From an uncultured Opitutia bacterium (GTDB taxonomy: Bacteria > Verrucomicrobiota > Verrucomicrobiia > Opitutales > UBA953), in NCBI GenBank assembly GCA_903925205.1, contig CAIYEN010000102.1:1-35832 (forward strand): a DNA stretch of 35,832 nt, read 5' to 3'. The number at the start of each line of letters is the position of its first letter. Within the stretch, counting starts at the first letter, position 1. Shown in pieces: positions 7,224-32,960 of this stretch. Below the pieces are notes generated by a model, which was not told the origin of the DNA, ran no database searches, and saw only the letters and a program-made list of their open reading frames with translations. The position numbers and the translations under genes were made by a program.

Positions 7224-8113
7224 CGAAATTCTTCCGGTTTGGAGTTGTCGGCCGGGGTCAGCAGGATTTCCCCGGCGGTGGGGTACTTGGGAATCAGGAC
7301 CGAAACCTCTTGGATGAAGTTGAGTTCTTTGGCGGGGGTGAGGACGCCTTCCTGCAAGTGTTTTTCGGCCGTGCTATGGACGCCTGATTCCAAGGTACCC
7401 AGCGTTAAGTGGGCTGGGAAGACCCCGCCCAGTCCGGTCGTCATCACCTTCGCGATTTGGCCAGCGGGCGGATTGTATTCTACCGGGATGATGCTGACCA
7501 AGGCCCGCGGTGCCGTCAAGGAGAGGCCGGCGCCACCGCTGACGTGGACGACATTGTTTTGCTCGTCTCCTTCGAGGAAGGCGGTGCACCGGAAGCTAGG
7601 GCTGGTGACGAGGTCAACCTCACTGGTGGTAAGGTGGACAATGCTGACGCGACCAATCACGCGGTCGCCGAAGACCACGGGGCAGCCCGGGACCACGCCG
7701 TCACTCCGGCCTTTGCGGATGATAATGCGTTGCCACCAAGAGGAGGTCTCGCGGACGGAGACGCGGGCGACTAAGGTGACGAACTCGGTGGAGGATGGGT
7801 AACGGAGCAACTCCCGCAGGCGGACATTTTCTTTACGCGCGTCATCCAGGGTATGAATCTTGAGCTCGAGGGCGGCGTTGATGCGGGCGAGGTCGCGCGA
7901 GGCCGCGGCGAGTTCCTCGGGGGAGCGACTTTTGAGTTCCCAGTAACGGGCGAGGTCGCGCCCCTTGCCGACGAGGTGCAGGGCGGGCGCTTGGAATTCG
8001 GCAAAGGCCTCGCGGTTAAAGCGGCGGACGGCACTGGGCACCAGCATCCAGAGCCCGATGAAGAACACCAGGGCCACGTAGGATGCTTTGGCTCCTTGGC
8101 GGTTGTTATCCAT
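7220..8113 (-). CDS. mreC: Rod shape-determining protein MreC
   Basis: N-terminal TM, coiled-coil then beta region (LRELLRYPSS..FVTLVARVSVRETSSWWQRIIIRKGRSDGVVPGCPVV..DRVIGRV); adjacent to mreB. Confidence 0.93.
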   Translation of the reverse strand: MDNNRQGAKASYVALVFFIGLWMLVPSAVRRFNREAFAEFQAPALHLVGKGRDLARYWELKSRSPEELAAASRDLARINAALELKIHTLDDARKENVRLRELLRYPSSTEFVTLVARVSVRETSSWWQRIIIRKGRSDGVVPGCPVVFGDRVIGRVSIVHLTTSEVDLVTSPSFRCTAFLEGDEQNNVVHVSGGAGLSLTAPRALVSIIPVEYNPPAGQIAKVMTTGLGGVFPAHLTLGTLESGVHSTAEKHLQEGVLTPAKELNFIQEVSVLIPKYPTAGEILLTPADNSKPEEFR

Positions 8114-8133
8114 GGCGGGTTAGCCCGCAGGGA

Positions 8134-9150
8134 TTACTCTCGGCCGCTCCAGCGGGAGGCGTTCGCGAGAATCTTGCCGGTGCCGTTGACGACGGCGCAG
8201 AGGGGGTCTTCGGCAATGATCACCGGGAGGCCGGTGGCTTCGGAGAGGGCCCGGTCGATGCGGCGGATGAGGGCGCCGCCACCGGCGATGACGATGCCGC
8301 GGTCGACGAGGTCGGCCGAGAGTTCCGGGGGGATGCGTTCCAGCGAGCTCTTCACGGCTTCGATGATCTGGTTGACGTTATCAGCCATGGCCTCGCGGAC
8401 TTCCTGCGAGGTCAGGTGGAGCGAGCGGGGGAGGCCGGTGACGGCGTCACGACCGCGCACTTCGTAGGTCATTTCCTGTTCGAGGGCGTAAGCCGAACCA
8501 ATCTTGATCTTAATTTCTTCGGCGGTGCGCTCACCGATGATCAGGTTATACGACGAGCGGATATACTTGATGATGGAAAGGTCGAACTCGTCGCCCCCCA
8601 CGCGGATGGAGCGGGCGTGGACGATGCCACCGAGGGAGATGACAGCGACTTCGGTCGTGCCGCCACCGATGTCGACAATCATGGAGCCGGTGGGCTCTTC
8701 GACGGGGAGGCCAACGCCGATGGCCGAAGCGACCGGCTCAGGAATGGTGATGACGTCATCGGCGCCCGCGCGGTAGGCAGAGTCCATGACGGCGCGGCGT
8801 TCGACGGCGGTGATGCCGTAAGGCACGGCCACGACGACGGTGAGGTTGGTGAAGATGGATTTACGGGCGACCTTGCCGATGAAGTAGCGGAGCATGTGCT
8901 CGCTGATTTCGAAGTCGGCAATGACGCCGTCCTTCATCGGACGCAGGGCTTGGATGTCGCCCGGGGTGCGGCCAAGCATCATCTTCGCTTCGTTACCGAC
9001 AGCGATGGGCTTGCGGGTGCTCGAGCGGATGGCGACGACCGAAGGCTCGCGGAGAACGACCCCGCGATCCTTAAGGAAGACGAGCGTGTTGGCGGTACCG
9101 AGGTCGATGCCGATGGCTTGCGTGAATAGCCCGGGGAAGCGCTTGAACAT
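8134..9150 (-). CDS. mreB: Rod shape-determining protein MreB
   Basis: IGIDLGTANTLVFLKDRGVVLREPSVVA, MIVDIGGGTTEVAVISLGGIV, IVIAGGGALI typical of MreB. Confidence 0.98.
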   Translation of the reverse strand: MFKRFPGLFTQAIGIDLGTANTLVFLKDRGVVLREPSVVAIRSSTRKPIAVGNEAKMMLGRTPGDIQALRPMKDGVIADFEISEHMLRYFIGKVARKSIFTNLTVVVAVPYGITAVERRAVMDSAYRAGADDVITIPEPVASAIGVGLPVEEPTGSMIVDIGGGTTEVAVISLGGIVHARSIRVGGDEFDLSIIKYIRSSYNLIIGERTAEEIKIKIGSAYALEQEMTYEVRGRDAVTGLPRSLHLTSQEVREAMADNVNQIIEAVKSSLERIPPELSADLVDRGIVIAGGGALIRRIDRALSEATGLPVIIAEDPLCAVVNGTGKILANASRWSGRE

Positions 9151-9169
9151 CAGATGGGTTGGTTTCCTT

Positions 9170-9189
9170 TATGAATAACCTATGAATAA
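9170..9189 (-). repeat. 9-bp direct repeat TTATTCATA x2 at 11-bp period upstream of mreB
   Basis: Plus strand TATGAATAA at 9170-9178 and 9181-9189, 20-39 bp upstream of the mreB ATG. Confidence 0.6.
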
Positions 9190-9316
9190 GGGAGTCAAAC
9201 CCCTTTTGCCCAAAGGGTTAAGCGGGCGACCCCTGCTGGGAATAACTTTGGTCAGGCGGTCCGCGGGTCACACCCGCAAGGCCTTGAGGCGGGGGCATTT
9301 GTGCAGTCTTCGCTCG

Positions 9317-10282
9317 TTAGACCACACATCGCCAAACCAAGATAGCGGCGCCCAAGGCGATGCGGTACCAGGCGAACGGTCCCATGCCACGTCGCAGGAT
9401 GAAACCGACCATCCATTTGACCGAGAGGAAAGCGGCCCCAGCCGCGATGAGCAGGCCGACACCGGCGCTGCCTAAGGGGTAGACCTGCGTGAGGGCCGGT
9501 CCCAAGCCGTAGACCTTGTAAAGCGAGGCTGCCGAGAGGATCGCGAGGCCGACCAAGAACGAAAACTCCGTCGCGGCGGCAGCGGAGAGGCCGGCCCAGC
9601 GCCCGCCGAGGATGGTCGCGAGCGAGCGGCTTGTGCCCGGGATGAGTGCCACGCATTGGCAGAGGCCGATGATGAGTGCCTGTCGCCAGCTCAGGCGCAG
9701 GACTTCGTCGGGCGTGGCGGCGTGCTTCGGTAGGTAGTGTTCGGCCAATAAGATGACGAGACCACCCGTGATGAGTGCGAGGGCGACGATCTCGATGCTG
9801 AACGGAATGTACTCCTTGAATAGGTAGCCGAGTACGGCCGCGGGGAGAAACGCGATGAAGAGCGACCGTGCGAGCGCGAGGGCAGGGCGCTCGAGGCGAA
9901 GCAAGCCGGCAGCCAGCTGGCGGAGGCGCCCGAAAAAGACGACCAGCACGGCGAGGATGGCCCCGAACTGGATGATGACGATATAGTCATCGGCCACGCG
10001 ATCGAGGTTCACGGGGCGACCTTTGCGATCCACCACGCCGCGGACGATTTTATGTTCAGCGTTGTCCACGCCGAGCAGGCGGTCGCTGATGATCATGTGG
10101 CCGGTCGAGGAAATCGGGAGGAATTCCGTGACGCCTTCGACGACGCCGGTGACGATGACACGCGTCGGTGTGAACTGCGCTTGGGCCTCGGCCGGGCTGA
10201 TTTCTTGCGGGGCCGGCGTCGGCGCGGCCGTCGCGAAGCCGGACAGCGAAAGGGCGAGCAGGAGGAGGCATAGGCCGCGCAT
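9317..10282 (-). CDS. uppP: Undecaprenyl-diphosphatase with signal-like N-terminal extension
   Basis: [16 protein letters not shown] and [13 protein letters not shown] signatures; preceded by a signal-peptide-like stretch [20 protein letters not shown]. Confidence 0.93.
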
Positions 10283-10381
10283 GCCATCCTAATGGTTGTG
10301 AAAGGAGGACAGGGCAAGACCTGCGATGTGACCTTGTCGCTTGCCCTTCGGAGGGCTTCTCGCTTTATCGGTGGACACTTT

Positions 10382-11617
10382 ATGTCGGCCTCTAGCCTTA
10401 TCCCGACCACCGAGCCTCGCTTCCAGGTTCCCGACGTCCATGGCCGTTTCGGCCAGTTCGGGGGGATGTACGTCCCGGAGACGTTGATGACCCCCTTGCT
10501 CGACCTGACCAAGGCGTACGACGAGGCCCGCCGAGATCCGGCCTTCCAGAAAGCTTATGCCGACATGCTGGTGGAATATGCCGGCCGCCCTACGGGGCTG
10601 TATTACGCCGAGGCGCTGACTAAGCATTGCGGGGGTTCGAAGATTTACCTCAAGCGTGAGGACATGCTCCACACGGGGGCCCATAAGATTAACAACGTCA
10701 TCGGGCAGGCTTTGCTCGCGGTGCGCATGGGGAAGAAGCGCATCATCGCCGAAACCGGTGCGGGTCAGCACGGCACCGCCACGGCGGCCGTCTGCGCCCG
10801 CTTTGGCCTGAAGTGCGTCATCTACATGGGGGCGACCGATATGGAACGCCAGGCGCTCAACGTCTACCGCATGCGCCTCATGGGCGCGGAGGTGCGCGGC
10901 GTCGAAGCCGGCCAACGGACGTTGAAGGAAGCCGTCAATGAAGCCATGCGCGATTGGGTGACCAACGTGCGCGACACGCATTATATCTTAGGCACAGCCT
11001 ATGGCTCGCACCCGTATCCGATGATGGTCCGCGATTTCCACCGCATCATCTCGCTCGAGTCCAAGCAGCAGATGATTCGGGCCGAAGACCGTTTGCCCGA
11101 CACCGTCGTAGCCTGCGTCGGGGGCGGCTCCAACGCCATCGGTTCTTTCTTCGAGTACCTCGACGAACCTGGCGTCCAACTCATCGGCGTCGAAGCCGGT
11201 GGTCGGGCCATCAAAACGGGCGAGCATGCCGCCCGTTTCGCTGGCGGTCGCCTCGGCGTGTTGCAGGGCTGCATGACCCATATCTTGCAGAATAGCGAAG
11301 GGCAGATTGAGGGCACGCACTCCGTTTCCGCCGGCTTGGATTACGCCGCCGTCGGCCCCGAGCATGCCTATTACCACGACAAGGGGCGCATCGAGTTCGC
11401 CTACGCGAACGATCAGGAATGCCTCGATGCGTTCCAGTTATTATCGCGCACCGAGGGCATCATCCCGGCGCTCGAGTCGAGCCACGCTATCGCCCATGGT
11501 TGCAAGGTCGCGGCCGATGGACCCCGGACCAATATCGTCCTCATCAACCTCTCTGGTCGCGGTGACAAGGATGTGTGGAGTGCGGCGCGCGCGATGGGCG
11601 TTGAAATCAAACTCTGA
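10382..11617 (+). CDS. trpB: Tryptophan synthase beta chain
   Basis: [35 protein letters not shown] (PLP lysine), [11 protein letters not shown] 10382 preferred over the longer ORF start 10292. Confidence 0.97.
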
Positions 11618-14266: not shown

Positions 14267-15850
14267 ATGTCCGAGCAGACGCGCCAGTATCAGGATATGG
14301 CCAAGACCGCCTCCTGGACGATGGTCTCGCGTGTGCTCGGGCTAGTTCGTGACCAATTGATCGCGGCCTTCTTTGGCGCCAGCGCGATTGGCGCAGCCTT
14401 CCTCTTTGCGTTTCAGATTCCGAACCTTTTCCGCCGATTGTTGGGCGAGGGGGCTTTGACGGCGGCCACGGTTCCGGTCTTGGCGGAAATCGAAGCCCAG
14501 CATGGGCGCCCCGCCTCCCACGCGTTCCTGAACTACGTCCTCCGGAAAATCCTGCCGTGGCTCCTTGGGCTCACGCTCGTCTGCATCGGCCTTGCGCTGC
14601 TCGCGATGATGCTCTTCACGGACCCGCGTTATGTGAATTCCGCGGAGTTTACCGCTTGGTGTATGCCCTATATGCCGCTCATCTGTGTGGCGGCGCTGTT
14701 TACCTCGGCCGTCAATCTCAGCGGCCGCTTTGGTTTGGCGGAAATCGCTTCCTCGGGCCTGAACGTCTGCATGATCTTGGGGCTGGGCTTCTTCGGGTAT
14801 TACCTCGGAGAGGGTGACCTCGGACGGGCTCGGTGGTTGTGCTTCGGCACCTTAGCGGGCGGCACGCTCCAGCTGCTGATTCCGATGTGGGGTCTCCACC
14901 AGGCGGGGTGGCGCCGCGCGCCGGTGCGGGCGGATGCCGCTGCCTGGCAGGCTTTGCGGGTTGCCTTCATCCCCGCGGCGTTGGGCGCCGGAATTCTCCA
15001 GATTAACTTCCTCATCTCGCGGTCATTGGCGTTCGACCTCGAGGGCTCGAAGCTCACCTACTACTATATCGCTAATCGCATCGTCGAACTTCCGATTGGG
15101 TTATTCTCGACGGCCATTGCCACGGTAATGTTCCCAGCCATGGCGACGGCGTTTGTGGAGAAGGACACCGCCGCCATGGGCCGTAATTACGCGCGCGGTA
15201 TGCGGCTCATCCTCGCGATCAACATCGGTGCCGCCATCGGGCTAGCCGTTTATTCGGAGCAGATTATCCGCCTACTTTTTGAGTTCGGTCGCTTCTCGGC
15301 CGAAGACTGCGCGAAGACCCGTTCGGTGTTGGTGCTCTTCGCCTTAGCCATGCCGTTCCATGCGATGATCTCGATGGTGACGCGGGCGTTGAACGTTGCC
15401 GGCCAGACGCAAGCGACCTTCCGAGTCGCCCTGTGGGCCGTGGGCATCAATGTCACAGGTTCCGTGGCGGCGGTCGTGCTGGGCTATGGCATCGAAGGCC
15501 TCGCCGTGGCCAACGCGGCTTCGGCCGTGGTGCAGTACGTCCTGCTGCGCCGACAGTTGCGCCGGACCGCGCCAGCGTTTCTCGCTGAGAACCTTGCGAA
15601 GCCGTTCGGCCAAGCCCTCGTGGGCTCCTTGATTATGGGTATCGTCGCGTATCACGGCTTTAGCCTGTTGTTCAGGTTCGGCCAGCCTTGGTTAAACCCC
15701 AAGGTCAACCTTCTGGCCGCGATGGCCCTGGCGGGCGGTATCGCCGCGGCGCTGTACGCGGCGTTACTGGTATGGTGGAATTACCCCGAACGCGACCTGG
15801 TGCTGGGCTTTAGTGATCGTCTACTGCGTCGCCTCCGTCTGCGCCGCTAA
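14267..15850 (+). CDS. murJ: Lipid II flippase MurJ (MviN)
   Basis: Polytopic, SRVLGLVRDQLIAAFFGAS..AFLFAFQIPNLFRRLLGEGALTAATVPVL is the canonical MviN N-terminus. Confidence 0.96.
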   Translation: MSEQTRQYQDMAKTASWTMVSRVLGLVRDQLIAAFFGASAIGAAFLFAFQIPNLFRRLLGEGALTAATVPVLAEIEAQHGRPASHAFLNYVLRKILPWLLGLTLVCIGLALLAMMLFTDPRYVNSAEFTAWCMPYMPLICVAALFTSAVNLSGRFGLAEIASSGLNVCMILGLGFFGYYLGEGDLGRARWLCFGTLAGGTLQLLIPMWGLHQAGWRRAPVRADAAAWQALRVAFIPAALGAGILQINFLISRSLAFDLEGSKLTYYYIANRIVELPIGLFSTAIATVMFPAMATAFVEKDTAAMGRNYARGMRLILAINIGAAIGLAVYSEQIIRLLFEFGRFSAEDCAKTRSVLVLFALAMPFHAMISMVTRALNVAGQTQATFRVALWAVGINVTGSVAAVVLGYGIEGLAVANAASAVVQYVLLRRQLRRTAPAFLAENLAKPFGQALVGSLIMGIVAYHGFSLLFRFGQPWLNPKVNLLAAMALAGGIAAALYAALLVWWNYPERDLVLGFSDRLLRRLRLRR

Positions 15851-15897
15851 AGTCTTTGCAACTCTCCCAGGCGGGAGTTGTTCTAAAGTTGTACCCC

Positions 15898-18800
15898 ATG
15901 ATTTTAAGCGGCCCCGTCCTTCCTGAATTACTCCGCGATGAGTGCTTGGCGGATATCTTCCGGGCAACGGTCCGCCGTCAGCCTGCCGCCCCAGCGTTGG
16001 AAGATGGCCAAGGCATCCTCACTTATCAGGAACTTTTACAACGGGCGGAGGGCGTCGCGGCGGGACTGCGTGCGGCCGGCGTGGGGCCCGGCCACTGTGT
16101 GGGGCTATGGCTGGGACGGGGACGCGATTTGATTATCGGGCAGGTCGGTATCGCCCTAGCGGGGGCCGCGTGGCTCCCTTTCGACGCGGCGGTCCCCCCC
16201 GATCGCTTGGCGACGTGCATGCGGGATGCGCGCGGCACGTTGGTGCTGACCGAGGAGGCGCGGGCCGCCGCGGTCCGGGAACGTGGCTGCAAGCCCTTGG
16301 TCATGGCGGCTCTACCCGTCGTCGGGGACGGCGTGATGGTCCGGGCCGCGTCGTCAGATAATGCTTATGTGATTTATACCTCGGGATCGACGGGGGAGCC
16401 CAAAGGCATCGCGATTTCACAACGCAGCGTCTGCCACTTTGTCCGCAGTGAAAACCAGGTGCTGCGGATTCGGGCCGACGACCGGGTCTATCAAGGCTTC
16501 TCCGTCGCCTTCGATATGTCGGTGGAGGAGGTCTGGATTTCTTTCCTGGCGGGCGCCACGCTCTGGATCGCTCCCGTCGAGACCGTTGCTGATCCCGATG
16601 CCGTGGCGGCGGCCTTACTTGCCCATCGCCTCACGGTGTTGCATGCGGTCCCAACGCTCGTGGCCCTGATGCCGGCGTTGCCGCCCACGGTCCGGTTATT
16701 GAACCTAGGCGGTGAAGCCTGTCCCGATGCCTTGTCCGAACGCCTTGTTGGCAAAGGGTACGAAGTCTTTAATACTTATGGTCCAACCGAGACCACGGTC
16801 ACCGCGACGCTCGCGGAACTCCGTCCAGGAAAGTCGGTCACGATTGGCCGTCCTTTACCTAACTACCAAATCGGCATTTGTGACCCGGCGCGACAGCTCC
16901 TGACGCAGGGAGCGTCCGGAGAGATTGTGGTTTTCGGGCCGGGCTTAGCGACTGGCTATCTCGGGCGGGCGGAGCTCACCGCCGCGCGGTTTGTCGAAAT
17001 CGCTGGCCAACGGGCCTACCTGACGGGCGACTTAGGACGGATTGATGCCTCGGGCGAAATCCAGTGTTTTGGCCGCGTTGATAATCAGGTGAAACTCCGC
17101 GGGTTCCGGATTGAACTCGACGAAATTTCCGCGGCACTGGCGGAACAACCGGGCGTGGGCACGGCGGCGGTCGTCGTCCGTCCGTTCGCCGGCAGCGATG
17201 AAATCGTCGCGTTCATCGTGGCGGCAGAAGCTCCGCTGAACCTCGCTGACTTGCGGGCGGCCTTAGCCCGTCGCTTGGCGGTCTATATGTTACCGGCCCA
17301 TGTGGAAGTCTTGCCCAGCATGCCGCGGTTAAGTTCGGGGAAAGTCGATTTGGCGGCCTTGCGTCACCGTGCGCTGCAAGTCGCGGCGGTAGCCGCGGCG
17401 CCCCCGCCCGTGGATGAACATGAAGCCGCCTTACGGGTAATCTTAGCGGAGTTTTTTCCAGGGCGGCGGTTGGCGCCAGACGTCGACTTCTTCTCGGACT
17501 TAAATGGCCACTCCTTACTCGCCGCGCGCTTGGTCACGCGTCTCCGTCAGGATCCACGCTACGCGACCATCGGCGTCCAACACGTTTACCGCCATCGACA
17601 GCTGGGCGCATTAGCGAAAGCCATGGCCAGTTTGGGGGCGGCGATACCCGGACGCCCAGCGCCCGCCCATGAAGTCGTTCCGTTCAGTCGCCATTTTTGG
17701 TGTGGCTGCGCCCAGGCGGCCTGCCTGCCGTTCCTCGTCTTGTTGCACATGTTCCAGTGGTTGGCGCCGTTCTTTGCCTACCACCTGCTCACTGGGGACC
17801 ACGATGACAGCATGGTCGTCGCGATTTTGGCGGCTTTAGGAACTTACCTAGGGGCTTTGGCGCTCTCATTTCCCTTGGGCATTTTGCTTCGTCGCTTGCT
17901 GGTGGGCCGACTTCGTCCGGGCAACTACCCGCTCTGGGGGGTGACCTATTTCCGGTGGTGGCTGGGGGCGCGCCTTAATGAAATCCCTGCGGTCTACCTG
18001 ATTTCGGGGACCCCGTGGAAGTCACTGCACTTGCGTCTCCTTGGGGCGAAAGTTGGCCGGGATTGCTTGATCAACTCGGTGACCGTCTCGGTGCCGGAAC
18101 TCTTGACGATCGGTGATGGGGCCTGCCTCGGCACCTTTGTGAATTTGGAGAACGCGCGGGTGGAAGGCGGTCGGCTTATCATTGGCCGCATCACGATTGG
18201 TCGGGGTGCCGCCGTGGATTCGTACGCCGTATTGGAGAACGACACTTCGGTGGGCGACGGTGCGAGGTTAGCGGGGCAATCTGCCTTGGCGGAGACGAAG
18301 CATATTCCCGCCGGAGAGACCTGGGCGGGGGCGCCGGCTCGTCCGGTGGAGACCGATACCGCGGTACCCGCTGCACCACCTCGCCCGAGCGTGTGGGCAC
18401 GCACGGCACGCCTGGCGGCCTTTGCGGTCGGGGCAGCCGTGGTGGCGGTCTTGTTCTACATTCCCGTCTTCCCAAGTTTTGTTGCGATCGACTACGTGGA
18501 CGCTCGCTGGCTCGATTTATTTGAGTCAGACCACAATTGGTGGGAGACCTTCCCGCTCTTCTTCCTGCTCGCCATACCTGCGGCGGCCATTCTTTTAGTC
18601 ATTACCGCTGGCTTAACTGGTTTTTTGAAGGCGTGTCTGCCCACGCAACGGACCGGGCGCTTCTCCTTGCACGGCCGGGAGTATTTCTGGAAGTGGCAAC
18701 TCTCCGCGATCCTTGATGCCTCCTTGCAGGTGCTGCACGGTTTATATGCCTCGGTCTATGTGGCTACCTGGCTGCGGCTCCTTGGCACGAAAGTCGGCCG

Positions 18801-19827
18801 TGATGCCGAAGTCTCCACCGCCGAAGGCGTCGTGCCCGAGCTCTTGGAACTCGGCGATGAATCGTTCATTGCTGATGGGGCGATGCTCGGCGATGAAGAG
18901 CAACGGGGTGGCTGGATGGTGCTACGCCGGACGCGGATCGGCCATCGCTCCTTCGTGGGCAACGGTGCCTACGTTCCTGATGGCACGACCTTCCCGGACG
19001 ATTTTCTCCTCGGTGTGCAATCCAGTTCGCCGCGGAACGAACAGATGCGCGCCGGGCAGACTTGGATGGGCTCCCCGCCGATGCTGTTACCGGCTCGCGA
19101 GACCATCGCGTCGCAGGACCCCACCTTAACCTTCCGGCCCAGCCCAGGTCGCCGCCTCGCCCGTGCCTGCATCGAAGGCCTGCGTATCGTCGTGCCGCTG
19201 GCCTTCATCATCGCGGTCGGTTACGTGACCGTCTACGAGACCATGGATTACGTGACGGAGGCAGACTGGTGGGGCTTCACCGTCGCCTTGACCTTGGCGG
19301 GTCTGTGCTACGCCGCCATCGCCTTCGCCTTTGTTTGGTCCGTCAAGTGGCTGATGGTCGGACGGTATCGTCCGCGCCTCGCCCCCATGTGGACGCTATT
19401 TGTTTGGCTGAGCGAAGCCGTTACGATTCTGCATGAATCGTTGGCGGTGCCGGCGCTGCTCAATTACCTCCGCGGTACCCCGATGCTCCCGTGGGCCTTT
19501 CGCCTGTTGGGCGTGAAGGTGGGGCGCACGACCTGGCTTAATACCACGGACCTGACGGAGTTTGACTGCGTCACTATCGGTGACGGGGCGGAACTGAACG
19601 AACACAGTGGCCCGCAGACGCATTTGTTTGAAGACCGCGTCATGCGGATTGGCATGGTCCAGATCGGCGCACGGGCCACCTTGGGCGTTCGTGCCACCGT
19701 CCTTTATGATGCCTCCGTGGGGGAGGAATGTCGCCTTGGCCCGTTGACCTTGGTGGCCAAGGGCGAGCACACCCCAGCCCGCACGTCGTGGGAAGGCACG
19801 CCCTCGGCGCCCGCGCCCCTGAACTAA
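15898..19827 (+). CDS. Pls/PosA-like non-ribosomal peptide synthetase: adenylation + carrier domain + membrane-embedded hexapeptide-repeat C-terminal region
   Basis: A-domain motifs VIYTSGSTGEPKG, NTYGPTETT, YLTGDLGR, LSSGKVDLAAL; carrier motif DFFSDLNGHSLLAARL with Ser codon at 17512-17514; six TM segments arranged in three pairs, each followed by a left-handed beta-helix-like region (LRLLGAKVGRD, LRLLGTKVGRD, FRLLGVKVGRT). No condensation or thioesterase domain seen. Confidence 0.9.
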   Translation: MILSGPVLPELLRDECLADIFRATVRRQPAAPALEDGQGILTYQELLQRAEGVAAGLRAAGVGPGHCVGLWLGRGRDLIIGQVGIALAGAAWLPFDAAVPPDRLATCMRDARGTLVLTEEARAAAVRERGCKPLVMAALPVVGDGVMVRAASSDNAYVIYTSGSTGEPKGIAISQRSVCHFVRSENQVLRIRADDRVYQGFSVAFDMSVEEVWISFLAGATLWIAPVETVADPDAVAAALLAHRLTVLHAVPTLVALMPALPPTVRLLNLGGEACPDALSERLVGKGYEVFNTYGPTETTVTATLAELRPGKSVTIGRPLPNYQIGICDPARQLLTQGASGEIVVFGPGLATGYLGRAELTAARFVEIAGQRAYLTGDLGRIDASGEIQCFGRVDNQVKLRGFRIELDEISAALAEQPGVGTAAVVVRPFAGSDEIVAFIVAAEAPLNLADLRAALARRLAVYMLPAHVEVLPSMPRLSSGKVDLAALRHRALQVAAVAAAPPPVDEHEAALRVILAEFFPGRRLAPDVDFFSDLNGHSLLAARLVTRLRQDPRYATIGVQHVYRHRQLGALAKAMASLGAAIPGRPAPAHEVVPFSRHFWCGCAQAACLPFLVLLHMFQWLAPFFAYHLLTGDHDDSMVVAILAALGTYLGALALSFPLGILLRRLLVGRLRPGNYPLWGVTYFRWWLGARLNEIPAVYLISGTPWKSLHLRLLGAKVGRDCLINSVTVSVPELLTIGDGACLGTFVNLENARVEGGRLIIGRITIGRGAAVDSYAVLENDTSVGDGARLAGQSALAETKHIPAGETWAGAPARPVETDTAVPAAPPRPSVWARTARLAAFAVGAAVVAVLFYIPVFPSFVAIDYVDARWLDLFESDHNWWETFPLFFLLAIPAAAILLVITAGLTGFLKACLPTQRTGRFSLHGREYFWKWQLSAILDASLQVLHGLYASVYVATWLRLLGTKVGRDAEVSTAEGVVPELLELGDESFIADGAMLGDEEQRGGWMVLRRTRIGHRSFVGNGAYVPDGTTFPDDFLLGVQSSSPRNEQMRAGQTWMGSPPMLLPARETIASQDPTLTFRPSPGRRLARACIEGLRIVVPLAFIIAVGYVTVYETMDYVTEADWWGFTVALTLAGLCYAAIAFAFVWSVKWLMVGRYRPRLAPMWTLFVWLSEAVTILHESLAVPALLNYLRGTPMLPWAFRLLGVKVGRTTWLNTTDLTEFDCVTIGDGAELNEHSGPQTHLFEDRVMRIGMVQIGARATLGVRATVLYDASVGEECRLGPLTLVAKGEHTPARTSWEGTPSAPAPLN

Positions 19828-19828
19828 G

Positions 19829-20353
19829 ATGAAAGTCTACGACCTGGCCGAAGTGGCCTTACGGCCTGCCCCCCAAGCGGCTGACGTTTACCTTGTCCGT
19901 TTACCAGAGCTAGGCCGTGGGCCTACCGCTCAGGCGACCTTGCGGCGCGCGCTTTTAAAGTTACTGCGCGGTTGGTATGGCGAGTCGGTGGAACTCGTGG
20001 AGACGGGCCCGGCGCCGACGCTGACAGGCTGCCCCTTGAAGTGCTCGATTTCCTATGACGGGACCGACGGGTGGGTCGCGTTAGGGGCACAGGCCAAATT
20101 AGGTTGCGATGCCGTCTTGGCCCAGGACTTCCCGGAAATGTTGGCCGTGGCGCGGAAGTATCTGGGACCGCACGTGGCGGAGCGCATCGAGCAGTCGCGG
20201 TTGCGGGCCGAGACCTTCGCCCACGCCTGGGCGAAGCATGAAGCGACCCTTAAGGCCATGGGGTGGGGCTTAGCGGAAGCACAAGTGGTGCCAGCGATGC
20301 TCTGCCACTATCACCGGCAAACGCAGGCGATTGTGGCGGTAGTGACGGAATAG
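19829..20353 (+). CDS. 4'-phosphopantetheinyl transferase superfamily protein
   Basis: CSISYDGTDGWVALG, LGCDAVLAQDF, and WAKHEATLKAMGWGL (variant of WxxxEAxxKxxGxG). ATG is one nt after the NRPS stop codon. Confidence 0.82.
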   Translation: MKVYDLAEVALRPAPQAADVYLVRLPELGRGPTAQATLRRALLKLLRGWYGESVELVETGPAPTLTGCPLKCSISYDGTDGWVALGAQAKLGCDAVLAQDFPEMLAVARKYLGPHVAERIEQSRLRAETFAHAWAKHEATLKAMGWGLAEAQVVPAMLCHYHRQTQAIVAVVTE

Positions 20354-21247
20354 TTACACTTTGCCGGAGCGGGCAGGGGAGGCGGCTTTCGCCGGGCCGC
20401 TCCGGTACTTCTTCACCAACGCCTGCAGGATCGCGACCGTTTCGTCATCGGCGAGACCATCGACCTTGGCGCCGCGGAAGTGTCGTTGGAACGATTCTAG
20501 CGCGAGGCCCAACGTCTTATCTGAGTTGTCGTCTAAGCGGTAGCCGTAGGTGCGCAGCAGCTGCTGGATATCGGCGTTCGCGAGCTTCTTGGATTTAAGT
20601 AAGATCCGGAACACCTGGACATCTTTAGCATCGGGCCAGGCACCGACACCATTGGCGGCAAAATATTCCCAAGGGAATAAAGAACCGGGATCGATCTTGC
20701 GACCGACCGCGATATCAGAATGTGCGACGACGTTCTCGGGGGGAATCCGATGCGTCGTCACCAAGTGCTGCGCCAGCGCGAGGACGGCTTCAACTTGGGG
20801 CTTGGGGTACGGATGGACGTTGCCGTCGTAGTTCACAATCTCGATGCCCAGCGAGGACTGGTTCAGGCTTTCGAATTTGCCCCAGGCGCTCTTGCCCGCG
20901 TGGTACGCCGCTAAGGAGTCGGGACACATCCGGAAGATGCGCGCCTTCGGTTGCTCGTCACTGACGAGGTAGTGGACGCCGACCATATGACCCTTGGAGC
21001 GGCCCTGGAGGCTATCTAAAGCGGAGGGTAGGGATGAGGCCGTATGGTGTAGCACCAAGATGGCGATGGGTTGCTTGCGGGCCTCGACGGCCGCGGACGC
21101 GGGTCCTTGGATCACCGAAAGCTTCGGGTTAACCGTGATGACCACTTCGGCCGTCGTTCCGGCCGTTTTCGAGGAAGTTGTGCCACAACCGGCGAGGGCC
21201 AAAACCGCCAGTAAGGTCGCTAATCGCTTAAAATATGAGGGGAGCAT
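20354..21247 (-). CDS. N-acetylmuramoyl-L-alanine amidase (Amidase_2) lipoprotein with C-terminal PG-binding-like domain
   Basis: Lipobox LALAGC; ILVLHHTAS...GVHYLV..AYHAGKSAW..NQSSLGIEIVN; VVAHSDIAVGRKIDPGSLFPW. Confidence 0.92.
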   Translation of the reverse strand: MLPSYFKRLATLLAVLALAGCGTTSSKTAGTTAEVVITVNPKLSVIQGPASAAVEARKQPIAILVLHHTASSLPSALDSLQGRSKGHMVGVHYLVSDEQPKARIFRMCPDSLAAYHAGKSAWGKFESLNQSSLGIEIVNYDGNVHPYPKPQVEAVLALAQHLVTTHRIPPENVVAHSDIAVGRKIDPGSLFPWEYFAANGVGAWPDAKDVQVFRILLKSKKLANADIQQLLRTYGYRLDDNSDKTLGLALESFQRHFRGAKVDGLADDETVAILQALVKKYRSGPAKAASPARSGKV

Positions 21248-21438: not shown

Positions 21439-22230
21439 ATGCCTGTCCTCCCCATGAAAGTCGCTCGCCATATCATTGAAGCCCGTCGTGAAGCCATCGC
21501 CAAGCTGCTGAGCAAAGTCGGCTACGTGCCCGTGCTCGAAATCTGCAAACAGTTTAATGTGTCGGAAGCCACTGCCCGGCGCGACCTGACGGAGTTGGAA
21601 AATCAGCGTCGGATCACGCGCACGCACGGGGGTGCACTGTCGGACTTCAATCGTAACTTCCCGCCGCTCGATGATCGCAAGGTCGAAGATTCGGAAGCCA
21701 AGCGTAAGATCGGTAACAAGGCTGCTTCGCGGGTTAAGGCCGGCATGACGGTGTATCTCGACTCGGGTTCGACCATCTTCTTTGCCGCTGAAGCGATTGC
21801 GGCTTCGGGCGTGCCGGACTTGCAGATTGTGACGACGTGTCTCCCGACGGCACAGTTGATTTCGTCGCTCCCGGGCGTCGAGGTCTACATCCCGGGCGGC
21901 CTGTTCCTCACCCGTCACGCCATGGTCGCTGGCGACCGCACCCTCGAAGAAGTGGCCCGCTGGAATTTTGACGTCGCCCTGCTCGGGGCCGAAGGCATCG
22001 ACGAAAATGGTCTCTGGAATTCGCAACGCGATATCTCGCACCAACAACGTGAAGTGATTCGTCGCAGCGATGAGGTCTTGATTTGCATGAACCGCGTTAA
22101 GCTGGGTCGCGGTGGTCCCTGCGCAGTGACGCGCGATGTCTCCCCGTTGTTCCTGGTGACGGACGCGGATGCGGTCGCGGTGGCGCAAGCGAAGGTCAAG
22201 ATGGCCGCCGACCACGTCCTCACCGCCTAA
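21439..22230 (+). CDS. DeoR family transcriptional regulator
   Basis: HTH region ILEICKQFNVSEATARRDLTELENQRRITRTHGGAL and sugar-P sensor-like C-terminus. Start could be 21439 or the downstream ATG (MKVARHI). Confidence 0.93.
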   Translation: MPVLPMKVARHIIEARREAIAKLLSKVGYVPVLEICKQFNVSEATARRDLTELENQRRITRTHGGALSDFNRNFPPLDDRKVEDSEAKRKIGNKAASRVKAGMTVYLDSGSTIFFAAEAIAASGVPDLQIVTTCLPTAQLISSLPGVEVYIPGGLFLTRHAMVAGDRTLEEVARWNFDVALLGAEGIDENGLWNSQRDISHQQREVIRRSDEVLICMNRVKLGRGGPCAVTRDVSPLFLVTDADAVAVAQAKVKMAADHVLTA

Positions 22231-22259
22231 GTTCGTCCGCTGCGGACGCATCTCAGGCT

Positions 22260-23015
22260 ATGTCCCCCGACGCCCCTCAGTCGCTGCTGGAACTTTCTCA
22301 TGCTTTGGGTGGTGAGCGTCTGCGCATGGCTATTTTGGGTGAAGGAAACACATCCCTGCGTCTGGATGCGGACACTTTTATCGTCAAAGCTTCGGGCTCA
22401 AACCTCGCGTCGCTGCGCCCCACCGACCTGACGACTTGTCGCTTCGACCGCTTGTTGCCGCTCTTAGATGCTGCCGCGGCCACCGATGCCGAAATCGACA
22501 ACATCCTGTTCGCCGCCCGCGTCCACGAAGTCGATAAGAAGCCTTCCATCGAGGCCCTCTTCCATGCGTACTTGTTGACGTTGCCCGGCGTGGCCTGCGT
22601 CGGCCACGTCCACGCCATCGCGGTGAATCAGATTCTCTGTTCACCCCGCGCCCGCGACTATGCCGAGCGGCGCGCCTGCCCCGATGAGATTGTCATGTGC
22701 GGGCTTGAGTCGGTCTTCGTACCTTATGCGGAGCCGGGTCTTGGTTTGGCTCAATCCATCCGCCGTGAGGTCCAGGCCTTCGTGCAGCGCACTGGCCGCG
22801 AGCCCAAAGTCATCTTACTGCAGAACCACGGAATCATTGCCGTCGGCCCTTCCCCGAAAGCCGTCCTCGGTGCCCTGCTTATGGCCGAAAAAGCCGCCGA
22901 GATCTTTGTGGGCGCTGCCGCGTTGGGCGGCCCCGTGTTCTTGACCGCGGCGCAGTGCGAACGTATCGCCGGACGCCCCGACGAGCTTTATCGCCAAAAG
23001 ATGCTCGGGCTCTAA
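22260..23015 (+). CDS. Class II aldolase/adducin family protein
   Basis: GEGNTSLRLD, KASGSNL, GHVHAIAVNQ (Zn His-x-His), LQNHGIIAVG. Confidence 0.9.
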   Translation: MSPDAPQSLLELSHALGGERLRMAILGEGNTSLRLDADTFIVKASGSNLASLRPTDLTTCRFDRLLPLLDAAAATDAEIDNILFAARVHEVDKKPSIEALFHAYLLTLPGVACVGHVHAIAVNQILCSPRARDYAERRACPDEIVMCGLESVFVPYAEPGLGLAQSIRREVQAFVQRTGREPKVILLQNHGIIAVGPSPKAVLGALLMAEKAAEIFVGAAALGGPVFLTAAQCERIAGRPDELYRQKMLGL

Positions 23016-23050
23016 TTGCCTTTCCCCGCTCTCCTCCCTTCCTGCTACCC

Positions 23051-24520
23051 ATGTCCAACTACCTTGCCATCGACCTCGGCGCCGAATCCGGCCGCGTGAT
23101 CTTCGGGACCCTCAAGGGGGGTAAGCTCACGATGAAGGAGATTCACCGTTTTGCTAACGGTGCCATCACCGCCAATGGCACCCTGCGCTGGGACATTGTC
23201 CGCATCTTCCGCGAGATTCGCATCGGCTTGGCCAAGGGCGCGAAGCTCGGGCCGATCCGTTCGATCGCCTGCGACTCTTGGGGCGTCGATTACGTCTTGC
23301 TCAAGGGCGATGGCCCGATGCTTTCCTTGCCCTACACCTACCGCGATGAGCGCAGCTTCAAGTCCTTCGATAAGGCCATGAAGAAGTTCTCACAGAAGCA
23401 GTTGTTCGAAGGGACTGGCATTGCCTCCATTTCCATCAACACGCTCTACCAGCTCTTTGATGACGTTGAGAACCGCCCGGAGATCTTGGCCTTCGCCGAC
23501 AAGTTCTTGCTCATCGGGGACTACATCACTTGGTTGCTCACTGGCCAGGCGCGCGCCGAAGAGACCTTAATCTCCGGCAGTCAGCTCTGGGATACGCGCA
23601 AGCGCGATTGGGCTTGGCCGGTGCTCAAGAAGCTCGGCATCCCTAAGCACATCTTTCCGAAGCCCGCGGCTCCTGGCACGAAGCTCGGTAAACTCCTGCC
23701 TTACCTGAGCAAGGAAACCGGCCTAAAGTCGGCCGAAGTCGTGACGACTTGTGCGCATGATACGGCCGCGGCGGTCGCCGCCGTGCCCGCCACCAAGGGC
23801 GATGATTGGGCGTACCTGTCTTCGGGCACGTGGTCCCTCTTGGGCGTCGAGCTGCCGAAGCCATTGGTCAATGAGACCGTGCGCGAGGCGAAGTATACGA
23901 ATGAAGTCGGTTTCGAAGGCACGACCCGTTTTTTGAAGAACCTCGTCGGCCTCTGGGTCCTGCAGGAATGCCGCCGCGAGTGGCTGGAGCGTGGCGAAGT
24001 CTCCGACTACGGTGAGATTGTGAAGCTGGCCCTGAAGGCTCCGGCCTTGCGCAGCTTCATCCGGCCGGACGATGTCCGTTTTGCTAAGCGCGGCGATATG
24101 GTGAAGAAGGTCCAGGACTTCTGCCGCGAGACCAAGCAGCCGGTGCCGCAGACGCATGGTGAGGTCGCCCGCTGCGTGCTCGAATCCCTCGCCCTCCTCT
24201 ACCGCGTTGAAATGGACGGGATTGAGAAACTTACCGGTCGTAAGCTCTCGACGTTGCACATCGTCGGCGGCGGTTGCCGCAATGCGCTCCTGAACCAAGC
24301 CACGGCCGACGCCACCGGTCGCACGGTCATCGCTGGCCCAGTTGAAGCCACCGCGGCAGGCAATATCCTTGTCCAGGCCGTCGCCATGAAGGAATTGAAG
24401 AACCTCGATGCCCTCCGTGGCGTCGTCCGAAAGTCCTTTGAAGTAGTGACTTACAAACCCAATCCTACGCTTGATTGGCTCGACGCCTTAGTGAAGTTTA
24501 ATGGTTTAAAGAAGTCATAA
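23051..24520 (+). CDS. rhaB: Rhamnulokinase / FGGY-family carbohydrate kinase
   Basis: YLAIDLGAESGRVIFGTL, CDSWGVDYVLL, YLSSGTWSLLGVELPKPL, HIVGGGCRNALLNQATADATGRTVIAGPVEATAAGN typical of RhaB. ATG 23051 preferred over ORF start 22955. Confidence 0.92.
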   Translation: MSNYLAIDLGAESGRVIFGTLKGGKLTMKEIHRFANGAITANGTLRWDIVRIFREIRIGLAKGAKLGPIRSIACDSWGVDYVLLKGDGPMLSLPYTYRDERSFKSFDKAMKKFSQKQLFEGTGIASISINTLYQLFDDVENRPEILAFADKFLLIGDYITWLLTGQARAEETLISGSQLWDTRKRDWAWPVLKKLGIPKHIFPKPAAPGTKLGKLLPYLSKETGLKSAEVVTTCAHDTAAAVAAVPATKGDDWAYLSSGTWSLLGVELPKPLVNETVREAKYTNEVGFEGTTRFLKNLVGLWVLQECRREWLERGEVSDYGEIVKLALKAPALRSFIRPDDVRFAKRGDMVKKVQDFCRETKQPVPQTHGEVARCVLESLALLYRVEMDGIEKLTGRKLSTLHIVGGGCRNALLNQATADATGRTVIAGPVEATAAGNILVQAVAMKELKNLDALRGVVRKSFEVVTYKPNPTLDWLDALVKFNGLKKS

Positions 24521-24563
24521 ACCTGCTTAAGCCTCCCTTCCCTGCCTTTACCTGCAAAGCACC

Positions 24564-26756
24564 ATGTCTACCTACAAGTACGTCTCCCACCTCTGGAACG
24601 ATGCCGAAGCGGCAAAACTCGATCCAGTGGCTCGCCTGATCTACCGTTCCAATAAGTTGGGCGCGGACCAGCGCATCACCAATACGGGCGGCGGCAATAC
24701 CTCCTCCAAAATCGTCGAGAAGGATCCCCTCACCGGTAAGGACACTCCAGTGCTTTGGGTCAAGGGTTCGGGCGGCGACCTGCGTACGAGCCTCCGCGAG
24801 AATTTCTCCTCCCTCTATCAGGATAAGCTCATCAGCCTGCAGGCGGTCTACGCGGCGCGGGCGGACAAGGGCCTGAAATCCCAGGCGGAAGACGACATGG
24901 TGGCGATGTATAACCACACCACATTCAACCTCAACCCGCGGGCGTCCTCGATCGACACCCCGTTGCACAGCTTCCTGCCAGGCAAGCATGTCGACCACAT
25001 GCACCCGAACGCGATCATCTCGATCGCCGCTTCCAAGAACTGCGCGGCCCTGACCAAGCAGATCTTCGCTGGTAAGATGGCTTACGTGAAGTGGATGCGC
25101 CCGGGCTTCGAGCTCGGCCTCGCCATGCAGGACATTTCCCGCGCCCAGCCGGACATCAAGGCCATCATGATGGGGCAGCACGGCTTCATCTCGTGGGCGG
25201 ATGACGATAAGGTCTGCTATGAACTGACGTTGGCCATGATCGAGCAGGCCGCGGCCTACATCGAAGCTCAGTATCAGGCCAAGGGCGGCGATGCCAAGGC
25301 CTTCGGTGGCGCCAAGTACCAAACGCTCGCGACCGAGCAGCGGCATGCCACCCTAGCGGCCATCCTGCCGTGGCTCCGCGGTCAAGTCTCCAAGGAGAAG
25401 CGCTTCGTCGGCACTATTCAGGACGACGAAAAGATTCTCCGTTTCGTCAACTCGGCCGATGCCCCGCGCCTCGCCGAACTCGGCACCTCGTGCCCGGACC
25501 ACTTCCTCCGCACGAAGATTAAGCCGCTCTATGTCGCTTGGAATCCGCAGGCCGAAGACGTCGCCGCGCTCAAGGCCAAGCTGGCCGCTGGCCTCGAACA
25601 GTACCGCCAAGACTACGCCACTTACTACAACGCCTGCAAGCGGTCCAACTCGCCGGCCATGCGCGATGCGAACCCGACCGTCGTCCTCATCCCCGGTCTT
25701 GGCATGATCGCGTGGGGCAAGGATAAGTCCGAATCCCGCGTCACCGCTGAGTTCTACAACTGCGCCGTCGAAGTGATGCGCGGGGCCGAAGCCATCGACG
25801 AGTATGTTTCCCTGCCGCAGCAGGAAGCCTTCGACATCGAGTACTGGCTCCTCGAAGAAGCAAAGCTCAAGCGCATGCCGGCGGAGAAGGAACTCGCCCG
25901 CCAAGTTATCGTCGTCGTTGGTGCCGGCTCGGGCATCGGCAAGGAAACCGCCCATCGCCTCGTCAAGGAAGGTGCCCACATTGTCTGCGTCGACAAGAAC
26001 GTCGAGGCCGCCCAGGCCACGGCCAAGGAAATCACCGATAAGCACGGCGTCGGCATCGGCGTCGCCGGCACGGGTCTCTCCAATTGCGGCCCGGCCATCG
26101 GCCTCAGCGGCGACATCATGGACCGCGCTTCCATCCGGAAGATGCTGGACCAGGTCGCGCTCGCTTACGGCGGTTTCGACTCCATCTGCGTTACCGCTGG
26201 GATCTTTGTCTCGCCCGACACCACGGGCCATATCCCGGATGACAAGTGGGCCCTCACCTTCGCCCTCAACGTCACGGGCAGCTACCTCGTCGCCGACGAA
26301 GCGTTCAAGAGCTGGAAGGAACAGGGCCTCCGCGGTAACCTCGTCCTGACCACGAGCGCCAACGCCGCCGTCGCTAAGAAGGGGTCGGTCGCCTACGATA
26401 CCTCGAAGGCCGCCGCCAACCACCTCGTCCGCGAGTTGGCCATGGAGCTCTCCCCGCTCGTCCGGGTCAACGGCGTCGCCCCAGCGACCGTCGTCCAAGG
26501 CTCGGCGATGTTCCCGCGCGACCGAGTGATCGCCTCGCTTGCTAAGTACAACATTCCTTACACCGATGATGAGGCGACCGATTCGCTGACGACGAAGCTC
26601 TCCCGCTTCTACGCCGATCGCACCCTGACGAAGAACCCCATCACCCCTGCCGACCAGGCCGAAGCCTATTTCCTCCTCGTGACCAATCGCCTCAGCAAGA
26701 CGACCGGACAGATCATCACGGTCGACGGCGGCCTCCACGAGGCGTTCCTCCGCTAA
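24564..26756 (+). CDS. Bifunctional rhamnulose-1-phosphate aldolase/short-chain dehydrogenase (lactaldehyde dehydrogenase)
   Basis: N-terminal class II aldolase domain (TNTGGGNTSSKI, HPNAIISIAASKN, MGQHGFISW); C-terminal SDR domain (VVVGAGSGIGKETAHRL, YDTSKAAANHLVREL). Confidence 0.93.
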   Translation: MSTYKYVSHLWNDAEAAKLDPVARLIYRSNKLGADQRITNTGGGNTSSKIVEKDPLTGKDTPVLWVKGSGGDLRTSLRENFSSLYQDKLISLQAVYAARADKGLKSQAEDDMVAMYNHTTFNLNPRASSIDTPLHSFLPGKHVDHMHPNAIISIAASKNCAALTKQIFAGKMAYVKWMRPGFELGLAMQDISRAQPDIKAIMMGQHGFISWADDDKVCYELTLAMIEQAAAYIEAQYQAKGGDAKAFGGAKYQTLATEQRHATLAAILPWLRGQVSKEKRFVGTIQDDEKILRFVNSADAPRLAELGTSCPDHFLRTKIKPLYVAWNPQAEDVAALKAKLAAGLEQYRQDYATYYNACKRSNSPAMRDANPTVVLIPGLGMIAWGKDKSESRVTAEFYNCAVEVMRGAEAIDEYVSLPQQEAFDIEYWLLEEAKLKRMPAEKELARQVIVVVGAGSGIGKETAHRLVKEGAHIVCVDKNVEAAQATAKEITDKHGVGIGVAGTGLSNCGPAIGLSGDIMDRASIRKMLDQVALAYGGFDSICVTAGIFVSPDTTGHIPDDKWALTFALNVTGSYLVADEAFKSWKEQGLRGNLVLTTSANAAVAKKGSVAYDTSKAAANHLVRELAMELSPLVRVNGVAPATVVQGSAMFPRDRVIASLAKYNIPYTDDEATDSLTTKLSRFYADRTLTKNPITPADQAEAYFLLVTNRLSKTTGQIITVDGGLHEAFLR

Positions 26757-26759
26757 AAC

Positions 26760-27479
26760 GTGCGCGTCTCGCTCTTCGTTCCTTGCTTCGTCGACCAGCT
26801 CACCCCGCAGGTGGGCTTGGCCACGGCCAAGGTGCTTAAGCGCCTCGGGCATGCCGTGGAATTCCGCTCCGCCCAAACCTGCTGCGGTCAGCCGTCTTTC
26901 AACTCCGGCCAATGGGATGTCGCTCGTGAGGGGGCGCTCCGAACCATCGAGGTCTTCCGAGGTGCCGAAGTCGTCGTTGGACCTTCGGGCTCCTGTGTGG
27001 CGATGATCAAGAAGTTCTACCCGGAGCTCCTCAAGGACACCCCGCATCTCGCTGCCGCCGAGGACCTCGCCGCGCGGACTTTCGAGTTCTCCGAATTCCT
27101 GGTCAATAAGCTCGGCGTGACCGACGTTGGGGCTAAGTTCGCCAAGAAGGTTACCTACCACGACGGTTGTCACGCGCTCCGCGAGCTCCGCCTCAAGGAA
27201 GAACCCCGGCAACTGCTCCGGGCGGTCAAGGGCCTGGAACTGATCGAATCCGAAGAAGGTGAATCGTGCTGCGGCTTTGGGGGACTCTTTTCCGCGAAGT
27301 TCCCGATGATCTCCACCGCCATGGTGCAGGTCAAAGGCGGCGCCCTCGCCCGCACCGGTGCGGACTTCGTCGTTTCCTCCGACCCTTCCTGCTTGCTGCA
27401 AATCGGTGGCTGGCTCTCCCGCGAGGGTAAGCCGATTCTGCCGTTGCACATCGCCGAAGTGCTGGCCCACGACGCCTAA
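26760..27479 (+). CDS. lutA: LutA-like (Fe-S)-binding protein, lactate oxidation subunit; GTG start
   Basis: Two CCG motifs: AQTCCGQPSFNSG and ESCCGFGGLFSAKFP; followed directly by lutB and lutC. Confidence 0.92.
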   Translation: MRVSLFVPCFVDQLTPQVGLATAKVLKRLGHAVEFRSAQTCCGQPSFNSGQWDVAREGALRTIEVFRGAEVVVGPSGSCVAMIKKFYPELLKDTPHLAAAEDLAARTFEFSEFLVNKLGVTDVGAKFAKKVTYHDGCHALRELRLKEEPRQLLRAVKGLELIESEEGESCCGFGGLFSAKFPMISTAMVQVKGGALARTGADFVVSSDPSCLLQIGGWLSREGKPILPLHIAEVLAHDA

Positions 27480-27483
27480 AGCG

Positions 27484-28875
27484 ATGTCCGACGCCAAGCA
27501 GATCTTCATCAAGGACGCCACGCTGAACGCCGCCGACGGGGATCAGCGTGCTTTCATCCGGAAGGCCCTTGGTGGCTACTACGTCAACCGCGACCTGCAG
27601 AAGGCTCGTTACCGCGATTGGGAGCGGGCCCGCGATGCGGCCTCGCTGGCCAAGTGGACCGCCGTCAACGACCTCGCGAATCAACTCGAGAAGTTCACGG
27701 CTAACTTTGAGCGCAACGGTGGCGTTGTGCACTGGGCGCGCGACTCCGCGGAAGCCCGCGCCATCATTCTGAAGATTGCAGCCGACGTTAACGCCAAGGC
27801 GATCGTGAAGTCGAAGTGCATGACCTCGGAGGAGATTCACCTCAACGATGCGCTCGAGAAGGCTGGCTACGGCGTCGTCGAGAGCGACCTCGGTGAGTTC
27901 ATTCAACAACTCCGCGGCGAAGCGCCCTACCACTTCGTCTTCCCGTGCATGCACGTGAAGCGCGAGGCCATCAGCGAGCTTTTCACCAAGCATCTCGGCA
28001 CTGCGCCGACCGATAGCCCCGAAGAGTTGACGATGATTGCCCGCCGTCACCTCCGCCAGCTCTACGTGGACGCCGACATCGGCATCACGGGGGCGAACTT
28101 CCTGGTCGCGGAAACCGGCCAGATTTCCATCACCGAAAACGAAGGGAACGCCCGTCTGACCGCGGCCCTGCCCCGCATTCACATCGCGCTCTCGGGGATC
28201 GAGAAGGTCGTGAATCGCCTGGATGACCTCGCGGTGCTACTCCCGATGTTGGCTACGGCGGGGGCTGGCCAGCCGATGACCTGCTACAACACGCTGTACG
28301 CGGGGCCCCGTAAGCCCGGCGAATGCGATGGCCCGGAGCAGTTCCACTTGGTCTTGCTGGATAACGCTCGCACGCGGCTCTTGGCGGATCCCGAGCAGCG
28401 CGATGCCTTGCATTGCATTCGCTGTGGGGCGTGTCTCAACGTCTGCCCGATCTTCAAGAACATTGGCGGCTTGGCCTACGGCACGACCTACCAAGGTCCA
28501 ATCGGCTCGGTCATCACCCCGCACCTGCGCGGCCTGAAGCAGTGGAACCACCTTTCCAGCGCCTCCTCGCTTTGCGGCGCTTGCACGGACGCCTGCCCGG
28601 TCCGTATCGACCTGCACCATCACCTCCTGCACAATCGCCGCAATGCGATGAAGCAGTCGCCGAGCCTCTTCGATCGCGCCTTCCACGCGGGGTTTGGCTT
28701 TGTGATGAAGCGTCCGACCCTCTTCGGCCTCGGCGGCAAGGTTTTCCGTGCGACGTTGCCTTTGCTAAAGAAACTCCCGCTTCCTTATATGAGTGCTTGG
28801 CTGAAAACGCGCGACCTGCCGGCAGCGCCCGCCCAGTCATTCCGCGAACAATGGAAGGACTCCGACCATGGCTGA
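27484..28875 (+). CDS. lutB: LutB-like lactate utilization iron-sulfur protein
   Basis: CIRCGACLNVCPIFKNIGG and LCGACTDACPVRIDLHHHLL [4Fe-4S] motifs; TGANFLVAETGQISITENEGNAR. ATG 27484 preferred over ORF start 27358. Confidence 0.95.
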   Translation: MSDAKQIFIKDATLNAADGDQRAFIRKALGGYYVNRDLQKARYRDWERARDAASLAKWTAVNDLANQLEKFTANFERNGGVVHWARDSAEARAIILKIAADVNAKAIVKSKCMTSEEIHLNDALEKAGYGVVESDLGEFIQQLRGEAPYHFVFPCMHVKREAISELFTKHLGTAPTDSPEELTMIARRHLRQLYVDADIGITGANFLVAETGQISITENEGNARLTAALPRIHIALSGIEKVVNRLDDLAVLLPMLATAGAGQPMTCYNTLYAGPRKPGECDGPEQFHLVLLDNARTRLLADPEQRDALHCIRCGACLNVCPIFKNIGGLAYGTTYQGPIGSVITPHLRGLKQWNHLSSASSLCGACTDACPVRIDLHHHLLHNRRNAMKQSPSLFDRAFHAGFGFVMKRPTLFGLGGKVFRATLPLLKKLPLPYMSAWLKTRDLPAAPAQSFREQWKDSDHG

Positions 28876-29548: not shown

Positions 29549-29558
29549 AGTCAGTGTG

Positions 29559-32906: not shown

Positions 32907-32950
32907 ACCCTAGTTGGATGTAGGGTTGAACACTCAATCAATCGGGTGTT
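32907..32950 (+). other. Tandem stem-loops in the gap between the heme protein and the S9 peptidase
   Basis: ACCCTA(32907-32912)...TAGGGT(32921-32926); AACACTC(32929-32935)...GGGTGTT(32944-32950, one G-U). Confidence 0.5.
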
Positions 32951-32960
32951 TACTAGCTTC

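Follow-up and report, generated by a model that had tools for sequence, protein, structure and literature searches.

A stretch of 35,832 nucleotides from an uncultured Opitutia bacterium (hereafter the window) carries, downstream of murJ, a gene for a membrane-bound nonribosomal peptide synthetase (NRPS) followed by a gene for a 4'-phosphopantetheinyl transferase (PPTase). What do these two genes make, and does their location among cell-wall genes tell anything about their function? We conclude, with a probability of roughly 0.82, that they constitute a PosA-type delta-poly-L-ornithine system, i.e., a synthetase and a PPTase encoded directly downstream of it. The predicted poly-ornithine pathway would now extend to Verrucomicrobiota.

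The NRPS and its predicted substrate

The NRPS gene (posA-like) lies in an open reading frame from 15856 (TTG) to 19827 on the forward strand. Its true start is likely the ATG at 15898, the coordinate given in the preliminary description, rather than the TTG: the sequence M-I-L-[SQP]-G is retained in other members of the genus with the gene at the murJ site. The predicted delta-poly-L-ornithine synthetase has 1309 amino acids from the ATG; residue numbers below count the codon at 15856 as 1, and numbering from the ATG is lower by 14.

Scanned against Pfam, the protein matched AMP-binding (238 bits), AMP-binding_C (31 bits) and Hexapep (47 bits) but no condensation or thioesterase domain. PP-binding (PF00550) scored 20.0 bits in the protein scan, under the cut-off of 20.8, and 25.4 bits in the genome scan, above it. 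With NCBIfam models, TIGR02353 (the Pls/PosA family) scored 708 bits against a curated cut-off of 423.1, and TIGR01733 scored 363 bits against a cut-off of 317. The NRPS belongs to the Pls/PosA family. Along the forward strand, a single adenylation (A) domain (15958-17364) is followed by a single carrier (PCP) domain (17422-17625) and a predicted C-terminal polymerisation domain (17710-19803), in the layout A-PCP-(2 TM + left-handed beta-helix)x3. The predicted pantetheinylated residue of the carrier, Ser553 in NGHSLLA (17512-17514), is unchanged across 48 homologues. Three pairs of strong TM segments, six in all, stood out in the hydropathy profile of the C-terminal part: 622-640/654-672, 853-871/901-919 and 1108-1126/1142-1160. 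This layout, and the family, had been read from the letters alone in the preliminary description, and the searches bear both out. Nor did the two findings that it had named as fatal appear: the C-terminal part matched TIGR02353, though its fold is that of left-handed beta-helix (LbH) acyltransferases, and the A and PCP residues are conserved in homologues.

The ten-residue specificity code, read from alignments to the PosA structure and to homologues, is DMEHNGTVTK (D220, M221, E224, H263, N283, G285, T307, V315, T316 and K496). In PosA of Acinetobacter baumannii, whose synthesis of delta-poly-L-ornithine has been proven, the code is DMEHNGTVSK (PMC10522769), so that 9 of the 10 residues are equal and the single change, S to T at T316, is conservative. 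In the PosA pocket, D217 and E221 are essential, T304 and S313 contact the side-chain amine, and M218 restricts side-chain length; the mutation S313A imposed a 183-fold cost (PMC10522769). T316 in the place of Ser313 is a point against the ornithine reading, though it retains the hydroxyl.

The NRPS and A. baumannii PosA have 46.9% identity across 99% of the NRPS length (A domain, 48.8%; C-terminal part, 49.0%), and the two share domain order, six TM segments and three beta-helices, although they come from different phyla. Identities were 40-45% (A domain) and 35-40% (C-terminal part) to family members with other codes, namely those of Azospirillum (DLEDIGSVVK), Rhizobium (DLEDIGTVVK), Rhodococcus (DFEYLGTVTK) and Streptomyces (DFECLSAVTK). 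The epsilon-poly-L-lysine synthetase Pls of Streptomyces albulus (A domain, PDB 7WEW) shares family and layout with the NRPS, but its A domain is much less similar (258 bits versus 407 for PosA), and the Pls hallmark, a lysine pocket with Ala at the position of PosA Met218, is absent. ArgJ is encoded in the same genome, so ornithine should be available. This strong homology points to ornithine as the substrate, and the product would be a delta-linked ornithine homopolymer, which upholds and sharpens the earlier proposal of a homopolymer of a cationic amino acid.

Could the same machinery use another diamino acid, such as lysine, diaminobutyrate or D-ornithine? With PosA, D-Orn is activated about half as efficiently as L-Orn (PMC10522769), and one position of the pocket is changed here (T for S). 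However, the length-limiting methionine is retained as M221, where Lys enzymes such as Pls have Ala and the PDAP synthetase has Phe (PMC10522769), and DMEHNG[TS]V[ST]K was present in every code-covering homologue, i.e., in all close relatives, among 34 loci found by similarity to the window; another diamino acid is unlikely. We see only a minimal chance that the module adds ornithine to another product without polymerising it, as may occur in hybrid PKS-NRPS-lipid clusters. A Pls/PosA-like module has been noted in a hybrid PUFA/PKS-NRPS cluster (PMC13291983), but neither the window nor the rest of the genome encodes another A domain above the NRPS cut-off, and the C-terminal domain matches that of PosA, a stand-alone polymerase.

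The predicted poly-ornithine locus would probably count among the NAPAA clusters (non-alpha poly-amino acids) of antiSMASH, known for instance from Pseudomonas viridiflava (PMC13387001); this prediction class does not stand for a single product. The posA-PPTase pair is likewise found in homologues from Pseudomonas (among L016-L032).

Linear gramicidin synthetase headed the PDB matches and suggested glycine specificity, an artefact of summing the scores of its two A domains; per single A domain, PosA (8g95, one of the A-domain entries 8G95-8G98) was the best match, and the glycine reading was dropped. Two other loci also encode enzymes of the Pls/PosA type. In the same class, a divergent TIGR02353 enzyme in L100 (G344:C92; 7185-11153) scored 407 bits, just under the cut-off; its code, DSECYGGVTK, is that of an arginine-activating Bdellovibrionales enzyme (PMC10522769), and no PPTase was found adjacent to it. 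In L139, a Streptomyces plasmid, a Pls/PosA gene (8044-10630) is followed by genes for diaminobutyrate aminotransferase and aspartate kinase, neighbours that would suit poly-diaminobutyrate.

The adjacent PPTase

The gene directly downstream (19829-20353, forward strand) encodes a protein of 174 amino acids, which the preliminary description took for a dedicated PPTase. Alone, it scored 21.5 bits with PF01648, under the cut-off of 25, but 10 of the 14 members of its family matched PF01648, and the family profile found Sfp (1qr0) and the human PPTase (2byd), in agreement with that description. G92, D94, W134, E138, A139 and K142 are invariant in the 14 members; the protein carries the metal-binding Asp of GxD and a W-x-x-x-E-A-x-x-K motif, features of Sfp-type and human-type enzymes. 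It lacks the second acidic position of the DxE motif of Sfp, with D-A-V at this site where most family members have D-x-M; the human PPTase lacks it too. We considered a degenerate enzyme on this account and ruled it out, the trait being common to the whole family. Its sequence evolves quickly (about 35% between sub-clades within the genus).

A PPTase gene directly follows posA at 26 of the 34 loci; with 3 of the remaining 8 cut by contig ends, the proportion is 26 of 31 testable loci. Because the loci were picked by similarity to the window, this proportion holds for relatives that resemble PosA and should not be extended to the entire family. The pair occurs in Verrucomicrobiota, Pseudomonas, Massilia, Undibacterium and Comamonas, in otherwise unrelated neighbourhoods. 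In the five negative loci, no PPTase was found near posA even with a wider search. The same order, posA and then a PPTase, was seen in the retrieved copies from the genus and in Rhizobium and Sphingomonas. None was found beside the posA-type gene in the loci of A. baumannii (where none is annotated next to posA), Azospirillum, Rhodococcus and Streptomyces. Because it is missing in these four taxa and in 5 of 31 loci, the PPTase is not indispensable to the family. Apparently, the pathway moves as a two-gene unit, and a matching PPTase could help to activate such membrane enzymes in the laboratory.

In its own genome (a MAG of 2.47 Mb, 93% complete, with Opitutae/Opitutus MAGs as nearest named relatives and hence Verrucomicrobiota), the PPTase is the only one besides one AcpS-like protein. 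The genome scan also found one further carrier protein, in an 85-aa frame.

Fold and proposed active site of the C-terminal domain

Employing an alignment of 30 homologues, we modelled residues 612-1323 with AF2 (pLDDT 84, pTM 0.86). The model consists of three repeats of two long helices plus a beta-helix, which agrees with the hydropathy profile, and with Foldseek its PDB matches were LbH (hexapeptide) acetyltransferases. A sequence search turned up no experimental structure that covers the entire domain, and a viral fold library gave no match below E 0.001. The fold is not new, since three packed left-handed beta-helices had already been modelled in the PosA paper (PMC10522769). The soluble units share their fold with LbH acyltransferases such as maltose O-acetyltransferase and serine acetyltransferase (CysE), but in the NRPS three units are fused and membrane-anchored, and a carrier thioester would take the place of acetyl-CoA as donor.

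For the domain, we compared 48 members of TIGR02353, with identities as low as 30%. In the third unit (C3), the motif QTHLFEDR (19615-19638, forward strand; consensus Q-[TA]-H-[LT]-[FY]-E-D-R) has Q1254, H1256, E1259, D1260 and R1261 invariant, and K1302 and E1304 are likewise invariant. H1256 is the only invariant histidine of the whole domain; none was found in C1 or C2. LbH acyltransferases work through a catalytic His, and with the sole invariant His in C3, we propose C3 as the active unit, in which H1256 may serve as the catalytic (general) base for polymerisation. A search of mainly open-access literature found no paper on the C3 His as an active site. A single invariant His makes isopeptide-bond formation by this domain testable by one mutation; together with the travelling PPTase, likewise testable, it adds to what is known of PosA. 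More broadly, the polymerising domain may be a trimer of hexapeptide acyltransferases, fused and anchored in the membrane, whose single active site is the C3 His, so that a CysE-like fold makes peptide bonds in place of a condensation domain, and the adjacent PPTase may represent a dedicated sub-family moving with PosA across phyla; this combined proposal is tentative, and we put it somewhat below even odds.

In the proposed scheme, the PPTase would load phosphopantetheine onto Ser553. By homology to the PosA crystal structures, the A domain would adenylate ornithine, with D220 holding the alpha-amine and E224, T307 and T316 the side-chain amine, and would then thioesterify it to the carrier. 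The membrane C-terminal domain, with its three fused beta-helix acyltransferase units and three TM pairs, would link the units via the delta-amine, as the product of PosA suggests, with the His of QTHLFEDR as putative general base. Probably, a short isopeptide with positive charge would result and be released or exported at the membrane. Neither an exporter nor a resistance gene adjoins the two genes. PosA makes products of 7-12 residues, and a synthetic 12-mer was mildly antifungal (PMC10522769).

The murJ/amidase junction and the spread of posA

On the left, the cassette is flanked by murJ (14267-15850, forward strand) and on the right by a convergent gene for an Amidase_2 + PG_binding_1 protein (20354-21247, reverse strand), both outside the system. 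The gene order is YicC-like, HU-like, HisS/HisZ-like, murJ, NRPS, PPTase, Amidase_2/PG_binding, DeoR regulator and rhamnose operon. The cell-wall neighbours named in the preliminary description (mreB, mreC, PBP transpeptidase, uppP/BacA, murJ and Amidase_2) were confirmed.

A posA-like gene was found in 14 of 55 genomes of the genus; the four other genera of the family that were searched, with 24 genomes, gave none. The close relatives G030 (91% murJ identity) and G025 (89%) are among 36 genomes of the genus in which murJ and the amidase gene are convergent, about 20-140 bp apart, with no cassette between them. Eight genomes have posA-PPTase in the junction, seven of them exactly (G000, G062, G067, G047, G053, G057 and G068) and one across a contig break (G064). 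Five other carriers (G031, G050, G052, G061 and G076) have an empty junction and posA elsewhere, and G037 is too fragmentary to place the cassette. The murJ-NRPS-PPTase order, whose conservation the preliminary description had proposed to check in relatives, holds in the eight genomes and not in the five.

In the tree (SH-aLRT support only), the murJ-site copies group together with full support, and Chthoniobacteraceae/Spartobacteria are their sister group; copies at other sites in the genus make up a separate clade. The genus therefore acquired the cassette at least twice, and close relatives have lost it or never had it. In this lineage, the unit would have been acquired horizontally and have settled between murJ and the amidase gene. 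We looked for a foreign base composition and found no signal of recent transfer (posA, 62.7% G+C; window, 61.8%). dN/dS was 0.08-0.17 (0.08-0.09 for posA against two relatives), indicating purifying selection. With host-like base composition and such ratios, the cassette is settled and under selection.

The location had suggested an envelope-directed product, i.e., a polymer that modifies peptidoglycan or the cell surface. Adjacency to murJ and Amidase_2, held in eight genomes, would fit such a function, but the 36 junctions without the cassette, the five same-genus carriers with posA elsewhere and the unrelated neighbours outside the genus argue against it, and we judge it very unlikely. The cell-wall location looks like an accident of insertion, not evidence of function; such a neighbourhood can mislead, for most genomes of the genus have the junction but no cassette in it.

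A terminator-like hairpin (15864-15877) lies between murJ and posA and is seen in close relatives. It is not retained in more distant members of the genus with posA at the murJ site, where the two genes nearly touch or overlap. Elsewhere in the window, an open reading frame at 6693-7223 (reverse strand), between mreC and the PBP transpeptidase gene (the mreD position), had no Pfam match. The region 21439-35198 encodes a DeoR regulator, an Aldolase_II protein, an FGGY kinase, a rhamnulose-1-phosphate aldolase/dehydrogenase (TIGR02632), LutABC-like proteins, a DUF7133/cytochrome c protein and an S9 peptidase, and is a rhamnose-type sugar use operon.
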